A stretch of 64,000 nt of DNA from Marinifilaceae bacterium (lineage in GTDB: Bacteria; Bacteroidota; Bacteroidia; Bacteroidales; Marinifilaceae). The translations under genes were made by a program, and so were the position numbers. A model generated the notes under the pieces. The model was not told the DNA's origin, made no database searches, and was given only the letters and a program-made list of their open reading frames with translations. Positions 23,588 to 29,860 of the stretch are shown piece by piece. Numbering within the stretch: position 1 is the stretch's first letter; every line of letters starts with the position of its first letter. The DNA lies in NCBI GenBank assembly GCA_016936255.1, contig JAFGYE010000050.1:1-64000 (forward strand), given 5' to 3'.

Positions 23588-24406
23588 TTAAAACAGGTTT
23601 AAAAATGGTTGTCTGATAAAGTTTTTAATTCTACTCGAAACGGCTGCTTTGCCTCTTAAACTAACTTCTCTGCTTCCAGGAATTTGAGTGTGATTTCCCA
23701 ATACTATTACTGCTGGTGACGCCGGCAATCCGCTGTTTTTTATTTGGCTGAAAAACTTTGTGTTCCCGCTTATCACATCACTGTCTGTATAGCTAACCTT
23801 CGATACTACATTGATATTGGTTTCCTTAGATAATTTTTTGTGAAGCTCATCAGCCATGTCTTTTAAATGTTCAAGCCCCATATAGATTACAACGGTATCA
23901 TTGTTCTCAATTTCCCTGATAATTTCGTTTAAAGCACTTTTTTCACCACCAACTTTTACGGCAGAATGAAAATGAATGCCCGATGATTTCCCTCTTTCAG
24001 TAAGGGGAATCCAAAACTCACTGGAGGCGGCCATAGCAGCGCTGATTCCTGGAATCAGTTCAAACTCTAAACCCGCTTCCAGCAGGAAACGAATTTCCTC
24101 AACCCCTCTGCCGTAAACCATTGGGTCGCCCGACTTCAATCTCACTACCTCACTGCCCAGCAAGTAATACATCAGCATCTGATCATGAATATATTCTTGT
24201 CTGCTTACCGGATTTTTGCCATCACCTGATCGCTTCCCTACATTAATAAGAATCGCTTTGTTGGGAAACAGAGCACGAACTTCATCGGTAATTAAGGCAT
24301 CGTATAAAATAACATCTGCATTCTGAATGCTTCGTAAAGCTTTTATTGTGAGCAGATCGGCAGCACCGGGTCCGGCACCAACAATCCATATTTTTCCTTT
24401 TTTCAT
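23588..24406 (-). CDS. cobA: Uroporphyrinogen-III C-methyltransferase (SUMT)
   Basis: A 272-residue enzyme that methylates uroporphyrinogen III twice with SAM to give precorrin-2, the precursor of siroheme. Motifs: the N-terminal IVGAGPGAADLLTIKAL, YDALI, the central LKSGDPMVYGRGVEEI, and PGISAAMAAS. It is the last gene of the sulfite reductase operon and, with the separate siroheme synthase at 28114, supplies the CysI cofactor. An AGTCCCC-type repeat separates it from cysI. Confidence 0.95.
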   Translation of the reverse strand: MKKGKIWIVGAGPGAADLLTIKALRSIQNADVILYDALITDEVRALFPNKAILINVGKRSGDGKNPVSRQEYIHDQMLMYYLLGSEVVRLKSGDPMVYGRGVEEIRFLLEAGLEFELIPGISAAMAASSEFWIPLTERGKSSGIHFHSAVKVGGEKSALNEIIREIENNDTVVIYMGLEHLKDMADELHKKLSKETNINVVSKVSYTDSDVISGNTKFFSQIKNSGLPASPAVIVLGNHTQIPGSREVSLRGKAAVSSRIKNFIRQPFLNLF

Positions 24407-24519: not shown

Positions 24520-26223
24520 TTAATGCTTAAAATCCTTGGGATTCACAATTTCTGCTATGTATTGTTTGCGGATCACGAAATCACCAAATTCTTCACCTTT
24601 TGTTCTGTTTTCGGAATAATCTTTAAGAATCGGACGAAGCTCATTCAGTATTTCTATCTCGTTCACATTTTCGCGATACAGGTTGTTCAGGCGTGTTCCC
24701 TTAAAATTGCCACCCAAATAGAAATTGTACCTTCCAGGAGCTTTTCCGATAAAGCCTATTTCGGCTACGTAAGGTCTTCCACAACCATTGGCACAACCCG
24801 TCATTCGAATCACAATTTCATCCTTGGTTAAGCCAAATTCCTGAAGGCTGTCATCAATTTTATCGATCAAGAAAGGAAGATATCTTTCTGCTTCAGCAAA
24901 AGCCAGACTGCATGTGTTTAGAGCAACACAGGCAATAGAGTTGGCTCTTGTCCCGGAAATTGTCTGAGGCAAAAGCTGGTGTTTTTTCAGAATCTGACTG
25001 ATTTTACCTTTGTTTTCTTCCTCAATCTTGCCTAGAATCAGGTTTTGATTCCCCGTTAACCTGAAATCTGAAATATTAAAATTTGCAATTTCCTGCAATG
25101 CCGATTTTATTTTGATCTGATCAACATCTTTCACTCTTCCGCCTTCAATAAAAAGACCCAAATACCAAAGGCCATCTTTGGCTTTTTGCCATCCGAATTT
25201 ATCGCCGTTGCGTACTAAGGCATAGCTTTTTTCAGGCTCTAATGAATAACCAAGCTTCTCATTCAGTAGTTCTTTAAATGCATCAACCCCAATTCTGTCG
25301 ATGGTGTATTTTAAACGGGCATTCTTTCTCACTTTTCTATTTCCCAACTCCTTTTGCAAGAGCACTATTTTTTCAGCAACATCTACAGTGTTCTCTGCCG
25401 AGGCAAAACCCAGAACATTTCCCAATCGGGGATAGGTTTCCGCATCGCCAAAAGTTGTTCCCATTCCGCCGCCAACAACAATGTTGAATCCTTCCAGAAC
25501 ACCATTGTTTTCAATGGCAATAAATCCCAAATCCTGAGTGAAAATATCTGTATCGTTAAAAGGAGGAGTGGTAAATCCAATTTTGAACTTTCGTGGCAGA
25601 TAAACGGGTCCGTACAAAGGCTCTACTTCGCCGGCACTCCCTTCGGCCACTTTCTTTTGGTCTAGCCAGATTTCGTAGTAGGCCGGAGTTCTTGGGCTTA
25701 AATGATCGCTCACTTTGCCAGCCAATTCCTGTACCTGATCGAAAACTTCGGATGCATACGGATGAGGACTGGCCATCACATTTCGGTTTACATCACCACA
25801 GGCTGCAATGGTATCGAGCAATGCCTTGTTTATGGATTGGATACTTGGCTTTAGGTTTCCTTTCAAAACACCATGAAACTGAAATGCCTGTCTGGTGGTT
25901 AATTTGATGGTTCCGTTGGCATATTCATCTGATATTTGATCGATTTGCAGCCATTGCTTTGCATTTACAACACCGCCAGGCACTCTCACGCGAATTAAAA
26001 AGGAGTAATCTGGTTCCAGTTTGGTTTTCTTTCTTTCCCGTTCGTTATCCCGATCAAATTGTTGGTAAATGCCATGAAATTTAGAGACTTGTCTGTCATC
26101 AAGAGCAATGGCTCCTGTAATTGGGTCGGCAAGACTTGCCTCCAGTGTTCCGCGCAAATAGTTGCTTTCGGTTTTTATTTTTTCGACTTCGGACAATTCT
26201 GCCCAGTTGATATTATCTGACAT
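24520..26223 (-). CDS. cysI: Assimilatory sulfite reductase haemoprotein subunit
   Basis: A 567-residue siroheme/[4Fe-4S] enzyme that reduces sulfite to sulfide with six electrons. The siroheme and sulfite-binding arginines lie in TTRQAFQFHGV and CGDVNRNVMASPHP. The cluster cysteines are in CVALNTCSLAFAEAERYLP (about residues 431-437) and MTGCANGCGRPYVAEIG (about residues 474-478). Normal CysI length. Its flavoprotein partner cysJ is immediately upstream, and cobA and siroheme synthase flank the pair. Confidence 0.97.
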   Translation of the reverse strand: MSDNINWAELSEVEKIKTESNYLRGTLEASLADPITGAIALDDRQVSKFHGIYQQFDRDNERERKKTKLEPDYSFLIRVRVPGGVVNAKQWLQIDQISDEYANGTIKLTTRQAFQFHGVLKGNLKPSIQSINKALLDTIAACGDVNRNVMASPHPYASEVFDQVQELAGKVSDHLSPRTPAYYEIWLDQKKVAEGSAGEVEPLYGPVYLPRKFKIGFTTPPFNDTDIFTQDLGFIAIENNGVLEGFNIVVGGGMGTTFGDAETYPRLGNVLGFASAENTVDVAEKIVLLQKELGNRKVRKNARLKYTIDRIGVDAFKELLNEKLGYSLEPEKSYALVRNGDKFGWQKAKDGLWYLGLFIEGGRVKDVDQIKIKSALQEIANFNISDFRLTGNQNLILGKIEEENKGKISQILKKHQLLPQTISGTRANSIACVALNTCSLAFAEAERYLPFLIDKIDDSLQEFGLTKDEIVIRMTGCANGCGRPYVAEIGFIGKAPGRYNFYLGGNFKGTRLNNLYRENVNEIEILNELRPILKDYSENRTKGEEFGDFVIRKQYIAEIVNPKDFKH

Positions 26224-26304: not shown

Positions 26305-28080
26305 TTAATATACATCAAGCAACAATCGCTTTTCTTTTTTCATATTTTTTAGATATTCTTCTGCTTTTTCAGAAGTTATTCCACCTTCGTTCTGAATAAT
26401 TTCCAGTAAGCTTGTCTGAACATCTTTGGCCATGTATTTTTTGTCTCCGCAGATGTAAAAATGAGCACCGTTTTCGAGCCATTGAAATATTTCTTTCCCA
26501 TTTTCCTTCAGTCGGTGCTGCACGTAAGCTTTTTCTTCCTGATCTCTTGAAAATGCAACATCTAATTTCTGAAGTATTCCTTTTTTAAGGAATTTCTGCC
26601 ACTCAAGTTGATATAAAAAGTCTTTTTTGAACCGTTGATTTCCAAAGAATAACCAGCTTTTTCCTTTTGCTTTATTTTGTTCCCGTTCTTGCAAAAAGCT
26701 TCGGTAAGGAGCCACGCCGGTTCCTGCGCCAACCATAATCAGCGGTTTGTTTTCATCATCCGGCAAACGGAACGACTCATTTTTATCAATGTAAATGGGC
26801 AAATGATCGCCTACATTAATTTCATCGGTGATGTAAGAGGAACAAGCACCGTTTCTGTCGCGTTTTTTACGATTGTATCTTACCGAAGCAATGGTAATGT
26901 GAACTTCCTCAGGATTCGCTCTCGGACCTGAAGAGATAGAGTAGAGGCGTGCATATAAAACCCGAAGAGTAGATAAAAATTGATTGCTGGTAATTTCTCC
27001 AGGGTAATCTTCCAATAAGTCATATGCATCAGCTCCGTGAAGATAGTTTTCCAACTCATCCTCATTATTCAATAACAGTTCAAGATCCTTATTCTGAGTT
27101 ATGGCCTTGTACTTTTCAAGAACCTCGCGGTTCAAAACGGTTATCTCCAGCTTGTTTTGCAAAGCCCGAAATAAACTGATTTCTTTCTCATCAATTGTAA
27201 CTATTCGTTCCGGATCATCTTCCAATTTGTCAATTATCAAGTCCACCAAATCAATAGGATTATTGGGCAAAATACCAATGCTGTCTCCCGCTGTATATTC
27301 AATACCTGAATTTTCTAATGAGATTTCAACATGGTAAATTTCTTTTTCAGAATCAGTCGTTGTGATTCTCACTTTTTCCAAAACTTCGGCATAGTATGGA
27401 TTGGCGCGGTTAAATTTCTTCTTTGGCACAGAAGCGCTTGCAGATTGGGTTGAAGCAGTAACTTCCGGCACCAAGCTCTTCAATTCACCAGTCACTTTTT
27501 CGATCCATTGTTCGGCGACTTCTTCGTAAGCAACATCACTGGTTTGAACTGGCAAAATTGCCTGCGCACCTAATTTTGTAAAAGCTAGATCGAAATCAAT
27601 TCCTGTCTGGCAATACTTCTTGTAGGTTTTGTCACCCAAAGCAAGTACCGCATATTTGGTATCGGGTAGTTTTGGTGCTCTTTTGCCGTGCACATATTCG
27701 TACAAATCTTCAGCCTGAATAGGAGCTTCACCTTCACCATGTGTACTTACGATCAGGAAAAGGTATTTTTCCTTTTTCAAATCATTTTTCGTGTAAAAGT
27801 CAAGGCCTTGTATCTTCGCATCGAAGCCCAGTGCTAAAACTCTATCGTGAAGATCCATAGCTATTTCCTTGCTGTGTCCGGTATGCGTGCCAAATAAAAT
27901 AGTGATACTTTCGGAAGATTTTTGATCGGAAATTATCGGAACATCAATTGCATTCTTTTTTCCATTAATAATCCCCGATAGGTATCCATTTACCCAAACC
28001 AATTGCTCGGCAGATAAATCTTGAATCAGCTTATTTAGCTGAGATAATTGTTCTTGATTGATTTGGAATTCTTTTCCCAT
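26305..28080 (-). CDS. cysJ: Assimilatory sulfite reductase flavoprotein subunit
   Basis: A 591-residue diflavin reductase carrying NADPH electrons to CysI. The flavodoxin domain starts with ITILFGTHTGHSKEIAMDL (FMN loop). The FAD domain has RLYSISSGP and NGACSSYI. The NADPH domain has MVGAGTGVAPYRSFLQER and FFGNQRFKKDFLYQLEW. The C-terminus LLLDVY carries the conserved aromatic residue. It lies 33 nt after the siroheme synthase gene. Confidence 0.96.
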   Translation of the reverse strand: MGKEFQINQEQLSQLNKLIQDLSAEQLVWVNGYLSGIINGKKNAIDVPIISDQKSSESITILFGTHTGHSKEIAMDLHDRVLALGFDAKIQGLDFYTKNDLKKEKYLFLIVSTHGEGEAPIQAEDLYEYVHGKRAPKLPDTKYAVLALGDKTYKKYCQTGIDFDLAFTKLGAQAILPVQTSDVAYEEVAEQWIEKVTGELKSLVPEVTASTQSASASVPKKKFNRANPYYAEVLEKVRITTTDSEKEIYHVEISLENSGIEYTAGDSIGILPNNPIDLVDLIIDKLEDDPERIVTIDEKEISLFRALQNKLEITVLNREVLEKYKAITQNKDLELLLNNEDELENYLHGADAYDLLEDYPGEITSNQFLSTLRVLYARLYSISSGPRANPEEVHITIASVRYNRKKRDRNGACSSYITDEINVGDHLPIYIDKNESFRLPDDENKPLIMVGAGTGVAPYRSFLQEREQNKAKGKSWLFFGNQRFKKDFLYQLEWQKFLKKGILQKLDVAFSRDQEEKAYVQHRLKENGKEIFQWLENGAHFYICGDKKYMAKDVQTSLLEIIQNEGGITSEKAEEYLKNMKKEKRLLLDVY

Positions 28081-28113: not shown

Positions 28114-28596
28114 TTAGTTAGCAATTAGTTGTTTTTGAAGCTGGTAATTTTCAAAGTAATCTTTCAGTTGATTTCGCATGCGAATCGATTCGTAAACATC
28201 TTCACCATTAGAACTTACAGCAACACTAATGTTTGAATGTTTGTAAATGGCGGGGGAAATGAACTCACAAAAATCTGGTTGATCGTGCACATTTAATAAT
28301 ACCCCGGCTTCTTTTGTGTCTCGCATTAATTGTCTTACAAAGGCAGGATCTTCAACACAGCTGTAGATTAAAAAATAATCTTTTAGCACTTCCTTGCTGT
28401 ATTGTTTCTCGTGATAAACAACACCTGAATTTTTAATCCAGCTAATGATTTGAGGAGCAATCACCTCAATTAGATTTGTGCTCCGTTGTAATATTTTAAG
28501 TTTTTTATAGGCATCTTCATCGCCTCCAATAATTAAGATTTTTTTATCTGTTATATCTAAGGCTATTGGTAAAAAATGTTTTATCTGTTTCGACAT
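28114..28596 (-). CDS. Siroheme synthase, precorrin-2 dehydrogenase (CysG N-terminal/Met8-like)
   Basis: A 160-residue protein equal to the NAD-dependent dehydrogenase part of CysG/Met8, which oxidises precorrin-2 to sirohydrochlorin and may insert iron. Visible parts: the dinucleotide fold ILIIGGDEDAYKKLKIL, the central LNVHDQPDFCEFISPAIY and ISVAVSSNGEDVYESIRMR. The family loop usually reads GGxxVAxRK; here alanine is kept but valine is replaced by aspartate. The downstream helical domain of long CysG versions is absent. It lies in the sulfite reductase operon. Confidence 0.9.
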   Translation of the reverse strand: MSKQIKHFLPIALDITDKKILIIGGDEDAYKKLKILQRSTNLIEVIAPQIISWIKNSGVVYHEKQYSKEVLKDYFLIYSCVEDPAFVRQLMRDTKEAGVLLNVHDQPDFCEFISPAIYKHSNISVAVSSNGEDVYESIRMRNQLKDYFENYQLQKQLIAN

Positions 28597-28607
28597 GATT
28601 TCTCTTT

Positions 28608-28838
28608 TTAAATGTGATAATCAATGGGATGTTCTTTTTCTTTTCCTAATTGAATTTTATTCCATGTTCTTTCATGGATAAAATAGAGTCCCATTTTTGT
28701 AAACAACTCAACTCCGCCAATCGACATGGCCCATTTTAAATCTCCAATCACTAAATAGGAGATTAAGATGGTATCAATGGTTCCAATCGTTCTCCACGAA
28801 ATGGTTTTTAGTACACTTCGGTATGTTTTTTCCTTCAT
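28608..28838 (-). CDS. DUF2061 membrane protein, first gene of the sulfite reductase operon
   Basis: A 76-residue protein with the DUF2061 signature: KTISWRTIGTIDTILISYLV, then SIGGVELFTKMGLYFIHERTWNKI, and two predicted membrane segments. The frame stays open to 29063, but the extra 75 codons run through the second leader and its terminator. The ATG at 28838, just downstream of that terminator's U tract, gives the normal family length and is chosen. DUF2061 proteins recur in sulfur assimilation operons; their role is unknown. Expression is predicted to depend on readthrough of two attenuators. Confidence 0.8.
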   Translation of the reverse strand: MKEKTYRSVLKTISWRTIGTIDTILISYLVIGDLKWAMSIGGVELFTKMGLYFIHERTWNKIQLGKEKEHPIDYHI

Positions 28839-28855
28839 TTTAATCGACTTACAAG

Positions 28856-28889
28856 AATAAAAAAAGTCCTTCTGCGCAGCAGAAAGACT
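28856..28889 (-). terminator. Attenuator terminator 2 of the sulfite reductase operon
   Basis: On the minus strand AGTCTTTCTGC (28889-28879), loop TGC, then GCAGAAGGACT (28875-28865): an 11-bp stem with one G-U pair. It is followed by seven T (28865-28859). It ends about 20 nt before the DUF2061 ATG, so it must be bypassed for any structural gene to be expressed. Its 5' arm and loop (TTCTGCT, 28884-28878) can instead pair with AGCAGAA at 28929-28923 in leader 2. Confidence 0.85.
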
Positions 28890-28927
28890 CGATATGTAAT
28901 GTTCATTTAGGTACATAACGAATTCTG

Positions 28928-29011
28928 CTAGGGTGGATTCCATAACATACACACACAACAACATGTTGCTGAATTGGTTCTGTTTGTTGTATGATTTGAA
29001 TTTATATTCAT
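28928..29011 (-). CDS. Cysteine-rich leader peptide 2 (27 aa)
   Basis: A mini-ORF with ATG at 29011 and TAG at 28930-28928. The C-terminal half reads SATCCCVCMLWNPP: codons 17, 18, 19 and 21 are all TGT. It is in a different frame from the open frame that runs into DUF2061. The stop codon overlaps the segment AGCAGAA (28929-28923), which can pair with the 5' arm of terminator 2. A ribosome paused on the Cys run would leave that segment free about 19 nt ahead; a ribosome at the stop codon would cover it. The start codon is the only ATG in frame, but its use is not proven. Confidence 0.65.
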   Translation of the reverse strand: MNINSNHTTNRTNSATCCCVCMLWNPP

Positions 29012-29070
29012 CCTTGTGCGAAAAATATATTCTTGAATTGATTAAGTCTGTTGTTGAGATCATTTTGTCG

Positions 29071-29105
29071 AATAAAAAAAGCCTTTTTGCTGTTGCAAAA
29101 AGGCT
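29071..29105 (-). terminator. Attenuator terminator 1 of the sulfite reductase operon
   Basis: On the minus strand AGCCTTTTTGC (29105-29095), loop AACA, then GCAAAAAGGCT (29090-29080): a perfect 11-bp stem followed by a T tract. Nine bases of its 5' arm (CCTTTTTGC, 29103-29095) are perfectly complementary to GCAAAAAGG (29156-29148) inside leader 1, giving a competing antiterminator. Confidence 0.88.
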
Positions 29106-29137
29106 CTTGAGAATATTCTGATATCTAATTCGTCAAT

Positions 29138-29209
29138 TTAAGCTGTTCCTTTTTGCATAACAATACTTTCCATACACATACAACATGTTGTACACATACA
29201 CAAAGACAT
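29138..29209 (-). CDS. Cysteine-rich leader peptide 1 (23 aa)
   Basis: A mini-ORF with ATG at 29209 and TAA at 29140-29138, beginning MSLCMCTTCCMCMES. Codons 4, 6, 9, 10 and 12 are all TGT (five Cys in twelve codons), interspersed with Met. Codons 18-21 contain GCAAAAAGG, the antiterminator strand for the terminator starting 33 nt downstream. The last Cys codon lies 17 nt before that strand, nearly the same spacing as in leader 2. The arrangement matches classical amino-acid attenuation with cysteine as the sensed amino acid. Confidence 0.75.
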   Translation of the reverse strand: MSLCMCTTCCMCMESIVMQKGTA

Positions 29210-29271
29210 TTTGTTATTTTGAAGAAATTGACTCATTGCTAAATAGGATATTTTGATCTGTTTATCGGATA

Positions 29272-29303
29272 CAAGTTTAGGAAGATATATTGAGGATTCC
29301 AAC
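29272..29303 (-). promoter_or_regulatory. Candidate promoter of the sulfite reductase operon
   Basis: On the minus strand GTTG (29303-29300), a 20-nt spacer and TAAACTTG (29279-29272), each one mismatch from TTTG and TAnnTTTG. It predicts a start near 29265, about 55 nt before leader peptide 1, so both leaders and both terminators would be in the transcript. Confidence 0.42.
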
Positions 29304-29311
29304 AAAGAGAT

Positions 29312-29340
29312 AATAAAAAAGACTGTGTTGTCTTTTTATT
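29312..29340. terminator. Terminator-like hairpin upstream of the sulfite reductase promoter
   Basis: AAAAAGAC (29316-29323) pairs with its complement (29330-29337) over TGTGTT, with T or A tracts on both sides. There is no gene immediately upstream on either strand, so what it terminates is unclear; it may insulate the operon promoter. Confidence 0.5.
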
Positions 29341-29345
29341 ATTTA

Positions 29346-29860
29346 AAAGAAACGTTTGCACTAGAAATCATTTTTATTGCGTAATTACATTGTTAGTTAG
29401 GTTGTTGTGTTTGTTTTTTAAGGGTGGGTAATTTAAACTGTATTTTTTAAGATGACAACATCTTTAAGGGTGGAAGAAAAAAATATGATAATTTTACATT
29501 AAATTATTCATTTGGTAGATCTTTCATAGTAAAATTATAAGCTGATATATTAATAATATCTCCCAAGAATAGAATTGTAAGCTTTTATAAGATGAAGCGG
29601 GAAGCTGTGCATCTGATTCATGAAAAATATCCTTTCGGTTACAATGATGAGATTAAATTTTAATGATTAGGAGACGGAAAAGGTTTTTAAGCTTTTAATT
29701 TTATAAGGGATGAGTAAAATTATCGGGTTAAAGTTGATATGAATGTTGTTTTTTTGCAGCGGGAGTTGAGTTTGAAGAAGCTAAAAATGAGGATACTGAT
29801 TCATATTAAGTTTACTTGAGAAATAAAAAATCAGAATTAGTAAATAGTTAAGTCTATTTT
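29346..29860. other. 515-nt spacer with a possible decayed small gene
   Basis: No intact gene is visible. A 23-codon frame from 29592 (KREAVHLIHEKYPFGYNDEI) ends in TAA, and another short frame near 29757-29808 (GVEFEEAKNEDTDSY) also reads like real protein, in the same direction with stops between. This could be one small gene broken by frameshifts, but I cannot identify a parent. The rest is A/T-rich with no evident RNA gene. Confidence 0.3.

Follow-up and report, generated by a model that had tools for sequence, protein, structure and literature searches.

The trp, his and ilv attenuators of Proteobacteria combine a codon run in a short leader, the position of the ribosome on it and mutually exclusive antiterminator and terminator structures. 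To our knowledge, little has been described of how Bacteroidota sense sulfur limitation. Here, two poly-cysteine leader units in front of a sulfite reductase operon are analyzed on the minus strand of a 64,000-nucleotide stretch from a Marinifilaceae bacterium (GenBank assembly GCA_016936255.1, contig JAFGYE010000050.1, positions 1 to 64,000; hereafter the window). The units appear to share the logic of the trp, his and ilv attenuators and differ from them in that no protector stem is established, that Cys (and probably Met) codons would be read, and that the unit is duplicated.

Poly-Cys leaderless small open reading frames (sORFs) were reportedly found upstream of mycobacterial genes by Canestrari and co-workers in 2020. 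The available portion of the source citing these mycobacterial leaders presents them as translation attenuation. Cys leaders have also been predicted in Actinobacteria, without conserved terminators according to the accessible part of the article (PMC1262725). Like the units of the window, these leaders are Cys-rich mini-ORFs upstream of sulfur genes, and a response to cysteine supply is proposed for them. Unlike them, the window has two units in series, each with an intrinsic terminator and an explicit antiterminator, has Met among the Cys codons and belongs to another phylum. Additionally, the first leader ORF (ORF1) differs from the leaderless mycobacterial sORFs in the 35 nt that lie between a candidate −7 element, with its presumed transcript start, and the ORF. 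The uORFC-8-2 motif ahead of cysS in Rhodobacterales resembles the window units in having Cys codons in a short ORF and a terminator with a U tract, and the available excerpt proposes ribosome-mediated attenuation (PMC8632094). It differs in that there are only two Cys codons and in that it controls a cysteinyl-tRNA synthetase; the likeness is one of description. Within the phylum of the window, a 2021 transcriptome of Flavobacterium psychrophilum describes structured 5' regions and leader-peptide clues for amino-acid operons, of which the excerpt names pheA and hisG and no cysteine or sulfur operon (PMC9723704). Before its own Firmicutes case, no leader-peptide system was known outside Proteobacteria and Actinobacteria according to the extract of a 2010 survey (PMC2965389). 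A Bacteroides map mentions, in the section available, sORFs in long 5' untranslated regions (PMC7366714), and the word cysteine is absent from the main text of two noncoding-RNA surveys (PMC11109978, PMC6429828). No Cys attenuator in Bacteroidota is among the matches listed in the open-licence literature, a scope outside which most subscription papers fall; an earlier interpretation of this locus from its letters (the sequence-only reading) had likewise known of no example.

The best reading of the locus from its sequence is a known kind of control, ribosome-mediated attenuation with a poly-Cys leader, in a form that appears to be new: doubled, with Cys and Met codons and intrinsic terminators, and in Bacteroidota. 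The probability that the leader consists of two ribosome-mediated transcription attenuators in series is estimated at about 0.85. Attenuation of the trp/his type had been proposed by the sequence-only reading and is supported by conserved Cys runs and alternative pairing, by compensatory changes and by recurrence at a second sulfate operon. From 29306 to 28838, a candidate promoter, ORF1, terminator 1, ORF2 and terminator 2 follow each other in front of DUF2061-sirC-cysJ-cysI-cobA (Table 1); this order, given before, is confirmed by the sequence, a terminator scan and profile matches. The profile matches assign the genes behind the leader to sulfite reductase and siroheme synthesis, and the short ORFs carry a run of codons for the end product of the pathway they precede. 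An intrinsic terminator separates leader ORF and first gene. Of the 15 sites resembling terminators in a scan of 10 kb (7.3 are expected from shuffles), terminators 1 and 2 have the highest pair counts.

In ORF2, TGT forms codons 17, 18, 19 and 21. Read from the ATG at 29209, ORF1 encodes MSLCMCTTCCMCMESIVMQKGTA, with TGT as codons 4, 6, 9, 10 and 12. These are the four and five Cys codons counted previously. The start at 29209 that was assumed for ORF1 does not hold up as well: the ATG at 29236 (MSQFLQNNKMSLCMC...) is aligned with an ATG in all 13 rows of the family alignment, and the inner ATG is lacking in the four rows of Marinifilum (genus g5). Most likely, ORF1 starts at 29236.

A CysI search of 96 genomes yielded 14 family members at an identity of at least 84%, the window included. 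In G006 the contig ends before the leader; the remaining 13 are the rows of the alignment and represent four genera (g1, g5, g9 and g10). Both leader units are present in all of these 13 genomes with a readable region upstream of the operon. Core, antiterminator and terminator are conserved, and the N-terminal halves of the peptides have diverged with the ORF kept open. ORF2 has 27 codons in every row, and TGT/TGC exchanges are the sole variation in its Cys codons; the ORF1 core TGT-TGT-ATG-TGT is invariant. A covariance model of unit 2 scores 120–141 bits in 14 of 56 family genomes, namely the 13 and G096, which is listed under the same species as the window and has both units with DUF2061 downstream. 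The model also picks up unit 1 in 11 genomes (27.8–46.7 bits), which is consistent with an origin of the units by duplication. Its other matches in the 56 genomes are leaders at the second sulfate operon (40.9 and 38.4 bits) and matches of at most 36 bits; in the genome of the window it finds the two window units and no others. Because close relatives keep both leader units, the sequences suggest that the bacterium reads the supply of cysteine, and perhaps of methionine, during translation and turns on sulfur assimilation when it is short.

Each unit contains a segment that can pair alternatively. In unit 1, TGCAAAAAGG, located towards the ORF1 end, is perfectly complementary to CCTTTTTGCA in the 5' arm of terminator 1. 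In unit 2, GCAGAATTCGTTATG begins at the last base of the ORF2 stop codon and makes 13 pairs with CATATCGAGTCTTTCTGC, a stretch that contains the 5' arm of terminator 2. The antiterminator shares the terminator 5' arm and sits where a ribosome at the stop codon, not one in the Cys run, would cover it. The last Cys codon of the core is separated from it by 16 nt in unit 1 and by 20 nt in unit 2, constant in all 13 rows; in the window, the latter distance is 18 nt if UA before GCAGAA is counted. The complementarity of each segment to its own terminator arm was noted correctly in the sequence-only reading, and its distance of 17–19 nt has to be replaced by these values. Terminator 2 pairs in 100% of the alignment cells and shows one compensatory change from U-A to C-G. 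Antiterminator pairing is kept in 98.2% of the cells of unit 2 (13 rows) and in 100% of those of unit 1 (10 distinct rows). Both features whose conservation had been left to relatives to decide, the Cys codons and the alternative pairing, are conserved.

Covariation of the antiterminator is absent within the family and present between families. In the named collection (the best 80 CysI loci of 590 relatives), six loci belong to Marinifilaceae or Prolixibacteraceae. The two Marinifilum loci (L122, L123) have both units. All four Prolixibacteraceae loci carry one unit each, resembling unit 1: two metagenome-assembled genomes (MAGs; L124, L125), Maribellus maritimus (L126) and a Mariniphaga sp. 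MAG (L127). A MAFFT alignment of both families misplaced the Prolixibacteraceae antiterminator segment; instead, anchored 10-mers were paired in 18 rows (the 13 family rows, Marinifilum caeruleilacunae and the four Prolixibacteraceae). At positions 5 and 8 of the 10-bp helix, G-C replaces A-U in all four Prolixibacteraceae, with both partners changed, and M. caeruleilacunae has G-U at position 5. Mismatches occur at position 2 in L124, at positions 9–10 in L125 and L127 and at position 10 in L126. Antiterminator and terminator covary between Marinifilaceae and Prolixibacteraceae at two of 10 positions. Of what an alignment of relatives had been proposed to reveal, the kept TGT runs are found throughout and the covarying antiterminator pairs between the families.

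A second sulfate operon, non-homologous to that of the window, also has tandem poly-Cys units in two related genomes. In G027 (L296) this operon encodes a nirA-type sulfite reductase (a NIR_SIR protein), a cobA-like tetrapyrrole methylase, a sirC-like protein, a cysH-like phosphoadenosine phosphosulfate (PAPS) reductase, cysD and a cysN-like GTPase. The leaders MRKEKLHIVKSKQNNCCCCMYIPIDKG and MKSTIQNIVKNRIDSSNTMMCCICCMCCCMRIILTYPGYYNYDCTMF stand in front of it, with a terminator after each, and the second one has a 9-bp antiterminator. G007 (L297) has near-identical tandem leaders and the first four genes of the operon, with a cysD remnant only.

The units were folded with the ribosome modelled as a mask, either at the last Cys codon of the core or at the stop codon, with or without the terminator 3' arm. 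With a stalled ribosome and the 3' arm not yet made, the antiterminator has a mean pairing probability of 0.66–0.99 in all 26 units. If the mask is moved to the stop codon, antiterminator pairing is 0.00 and the terminator forms at 0.91–1.00. The following sequence of events is proposed. RNA polymerase would start near 29270 and make the leader with ORF1. If charged Cys-tRNA (probably Met-tRNA as well) is plentiful, the ribosome would reach the stop codon of the mini-ORF and cover the antiterminator segment, terminator 1 would fold and transcription would end. If it is scarce, the ribosome would stall in the Cys/Met run, 16–20 nt before the antiterminator, and the free segment would capture the terminator 5' arm as soon as it is made, letting the polymerase pass. 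The same decision would be repeated at unit 2, just before DUF2061, and only polymerases that pass both gates would reach DUF2061-sirC-cysJ-cysI-cobA and allow the production of reduced sulfur. We infer the transcription start, the translation, the direction of the response, the role of Met and the gating by both units. Two units in series could conceivably sharpen the response.

Several observations weigh against this reading. If the terminator 3' arm is present in the stalled state, the antiterminator reaches only 0–0.11 and the terminator 0.80–1.00. The terminator wins at equilibrium even when the ribosome is stalled, and the switch must therefore be kinetic, decided during transcription. 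No protector (1:2) stem is established; the antiterminator segment (segment 2) pairs upstream with a probability of 0.15–0.78. In unit 1 it has a recurrent weak partner about 28–43 nt before the Cys run (0.42–0.68), possibly a protector segment, and in unit 2 its partners are variable. A ribosome at the stop codon may do the job of the protector stem, and it is tempting to speculate that Pro-Pro-stop at the end of ORF2 slows release and prolongs the cover. Some ORF1 Cys codons before the core are replaced, by Ser in G016 and G027, by Pro in G001 and by different residues in g5. In the four g5 rows and in G015, an extra ORF1 Cys codon lies after the core at only 7 or 4 nt from the antiterminator, and a ribosome stalled there would cover the segment; L127 likewise has a Cys codon at its antiterminator segment. 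The antiterminator pairs hardly vary within the family, so that they are conserved and not by themselves evidence of covariation, and the structures were derived from the very sequences scored for pairing. By the automatic test, the complement is only 5 bp long in two leaders, the first one at the second sulfate operon and that of G296, a genome of family f38. Finally, among the leaders of families f38 and f65 described below, two have no evident and one has a weak terminator, and not all poly-Cys leaders need work alike.

In f132, a family of the same phylum and another class, all five genomes listed by a siroheme-synthase search have peptides like MQVPGLFPCCGCPCCCPHTGGACCTCSLCG before cobA-sirC. 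These leaders show 10–13 bp of complementarity to the terminator 5' arm and stems with T tracts. They (L237, L240, L244, L245, L246) are Cys-rich with Pro or Gly in place of Met, and the gene preceding the f132 leader looks like the last part of a cystathionine synthase family protein, a label given by reading and not by a profile match. Poly-Cys leaders also precede sirC-hemA in f38 (G296, G091) and f65 (G315, G383). DUF2061 lies between leader and sirC-hemA in G091, G315 and G383; in these three, cysI follows about 8 kb later on that contig and strand. G296 has a strong terminator and G315 a weak one, and none is evident in G383 and G091; the leaders with a weak or no evident terminator are those of L312, L315 and L319. 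In L312, a helix predicted to involve the region before DUF2061 overlaps the second Cys cluster.

Taken together, Bacteroidota may control sulfur starvation without a protein regulator, through leaders that read Cys and Met, with two serial gates in the family of the window, duplicated from one ancestral unit and built again independently at the second sulfate operon and at the siroheme operons of distant families. This broader proposal is tentative, and we place it slightly below even odds. The leaders would offer a codon-level answer to sulfur sensing in Bacteroidota, with named relatives in Marinifilum, Maribellus and Mariniphaga. Two complete attenuators in series lend themselves to testing what the doubling of a gate brings: tighter shut-off, a wider range or two inputs. 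The leaders of f38, f65 and f132 may show the repeated invention of one solution.

Within the Cys clusters, Met accounts for 30 of 61 non-Cys residues, vs 15 of 306 outside (Fisher p 2e-16, a value overstated because the peptides are related and were picked as representatives). The count covers 14 peptides from the family of the window, the second sulfate operon, Prolixibacteraceae and G296, and a cluster includes one residue added on each side. Not counted are the f65 peptides and three peptides whose core lacks Met, one from G091 and two from f132 (0/3, 0/4, 0/4). The relaxed scan described below admitted Cys+Met runs; among the 14 peptides, only that of L124 has fewer than three Cys in its core. 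The Met share in four proteins of the operon is 1.1%. Probably, the leaders sense both sulfur amino acids, and the interleaved Cys and Met codons would, if this is true, form a two-amino-acid sensor. The enrichment of Met as well as Cys also fits a different sensor in front of the same terminator switch: the nascent peptide itself, which would bind copper(I) or respond to thiol redox inside the exit tunnel and halt the ribosome. Motifs of the CCCMCM type might well bind soft metals. ORF2 moreover has a conserved end: 12 of 13 rows finish with Pro-Pro-stop, the exception being Gln-Pro in G001, and 11 of 13 have Leu-Trp before it. However, the arrangement of Cys and Met varies between families (CMMCMCC, CMVCMC, CCICCMCCCM, CCGCPCCC), unlike in arrest peptides, and sulfur or siroheme genes follow the leader in every accepted case. 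Sensing by the peptide is thus considered very unlikely.

Similarly improbable is that these leaders act by translational coupling or Rho-dependent attenuation instead of intrinsic termination, as for the actinobacterial cysteine leaders, for which the part of the article at hand suggests Rho (PMC1262725). The f38 and f65 leaders that lack strong terminators would agree with such a mechanism, whereas both units of the family, the Prolixibacteraceae units and the f132 units have stems with T tracts and complementary segments.

Ribosome-mediated attenuation further requires that the ORFs are read. The core UGUUGURUGUGUAUG is nearly invariant in nucleotides in both units of the family, and the UGU/UGUAUG repeats could form a binding array for an RNA-binding protein, following TRAP- or HutP-like logic, with the ORFs incidental. 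Yet start, stop and open frame are retained while the rest of the ORF diverges. In unit 2 and in the leader that comes first at the second sulfate operon, Cys codons differ only by T or C at the third position, and other families encode Cys-rich peptides by different nucleotide strings that include UGC codons. The chance of a protein-binding array is accordingly rated as slim.

In the strict scan, which calls for at least four Cys in six codons of a short ORF and a terminator after it, ORF2 is found in the real window and nothing in 100 dinucleotide shuffles. In the relaxed scan, the real 64 kb yield just ORF1 and ORF2, and 100 such shuffles together yield two matches. Over 344 loci it returns 39 distinct peptides, of which 32 read as leaders of sulfur or siroheme operons and seven do not (in L085, L110, L147, L180, L193, L298 and L329); these loci comprise 5.19 Mb of both strands, many overlap and many were fetched for sulfur genes, so that the rate is not unbiased. 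The leader scan skips ORFs with a frame open for more than 75 codons and under-reports (for instance unit 1 of L024 and L026, visible in the alignment). The genome of the window contains 58 CCCxC-type strings; 30 were examined as loci, of which two fall within short ORFs and none was picked up by the leader scan, and the remaining 28, including the window's own, are outside that scan. A random TGT tract with random hairpins in AT-rich intergenic DNA, which the TG-rich core and the 58 strings might suggest, has a negligible probability given these scans and the conservation across genera and families.

Table 1. Positions of the leader elements and operon genes in the window.
Feature	Position	Strand	Basis or remark
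Candidate −33 element of the leader promoter (TTTG/TTG)	29300..29306	-	Overlaps TTTG position of g5 rows, 20 nt before −7 element
Candidate −7 element, TAAACTTG	29272..29279	-	Alignment of 13 family rows
Putative leader ORF1, MSQFLQNNKMSLCMCTTCCMCMESIVMQKGTA	29138..29236	-	Start conserved at 29236; 29209 in the sequence-only reading
Unit 1 Cys/Met core, C-M-C-T-T-C-C-M-C-M	29171..29200	-	Sequence and alignment
Unit 1 antiterminator segment, TGCAAAAAGG	29148..29157	-	Pairs with 29094-29103
Terminator 1 stem-loop, then T tract	29077..29108	-	Terminator scan; 14 pairs
Putative leader ORF2, MNINSNHTTNRTNSATCCCVCMLWNPP	28928..29011	-	Conserved reading frame, relaxed and strict scans
Unit 2 Cys run, TGT TGT TGT GTG TGT	28949..28963	-	Sequence
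Unit 2 antiterminator segment, GCAGAATTCGTTATG	28914..28928	-	Pairs with 28879-28896
Terminator 2 stem-loop, then T tract	28864..28890	-	Terminator scan; 12 pairs
DUF2061 membrane protein, first gene of the operon	28608..28838	-	Pfam PF09834
sirC-like precorrin-2 dehydrogenase (siroheme synthase N-terminal domain)	28114..28596	-	TIGR01470 over cut-off
cysJ, sulfite reductase flavoprotein	26305..28080	-	TIGR01931 over cut-off
cysI, sulfite reductase hemoprotein	24520..26223	-	NF010029 over cut-off
cobA, uroporphyrinogen-III C-methyltransferase	23588..24406	-	TIGR01469 over cut-off

The promoter elements were called by what we take to be the Bacteroidota promoter consensus. The candidate −7 element reads TAAACTTG or TAAAATTG in 12 of the 13 aligned family rows and TATCCTTG in G015. 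Directly upstream of the candidate promoter, at 29310-29342, lies an inverted repeat (AATAAAAAGAC..GTCTTTTTTATT). Some members of genus g1 retain it; elsewhere it is eroded or absent. It is perhaps a bidirectional terminator that insulates the leader. No Rfam family (riboswitch, T-box, SAM and others) is above its gathering score in the 64 kb, and only sub-threshold matches occur in 28600-29700. A riboswitch or T-box was set aside on this ground and because the conserved elements are ORFs. DUF2061 opens sulfite reductase or siroheme operons in the family of the window, in two of the four Prolixibacteraceae loci and in G091, G315 and G383. This position of a small membrane protein at the start of the operon hints at a role in sulfur metabolism.

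The distribution of the leaders was followed with several queries. The other 74 of the best 80 CysI loci (mostly Bacillota, and including Hymenobacter, Paludibacter and other Bacteroidota) gave only three matches, which look spurious; this 80-locus scan covered 3.36 Mb of both strands, including the order-query loci L202–L231, and nine of the 74 loci have an upstream region shorter than 3.5 kb, with which a distant leader would be missed. The siroheme-synthase search in the phylum matched 152 of 296 genomes, and leaders were found in five of the 50 loci scanned, all in f132. None of 30 loci scanned with a sulfite reductase query across the order has a leader, and their flanks of 1.5 kb need not reach the operon start. 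The DUF2061 search matched 70 of 393 genomes; among 30 loci scanned, leaders are present in the window, G315, G383 and G091, one match (L329) is spurious and the other 25 have none. Two of these 25 without a leader at DUF2061 are G370 (f38) and G119 (f65); therefore, the trait is patchy. The sulfite reductase loci of f38, f65 and f132 (L334–L344) yielded no further leader. No leader was found at 13 cysD loci of 11 family genomes within the available flanks, nor in 10.7 kb at cysC-cysD-cysN of the window genome. The 16 kb around cysD of G035 contain no sulfur-gene leader and one scan match, which follows the apparent end of a prolyl-tRNA synthetase and precedes no recognized sulfur gene.

An order-wide search with the unit-2 model matched 22 of 393 genomes besides that of the window at E up to 0.1. 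Among the 16 loci that were read, only G296 has a poly-Cys leader, and the remaining loci were scanned only. The other matches read include look-alike terminators and one CRISPR array. The latter (L117) is a CRISPR-like array with the repeat AATCTACAATAGTAGAAATTATTATGTCTTAATAGAC, matched by the model by chance, and its repeat presumably resembles those of the Cas12a type.

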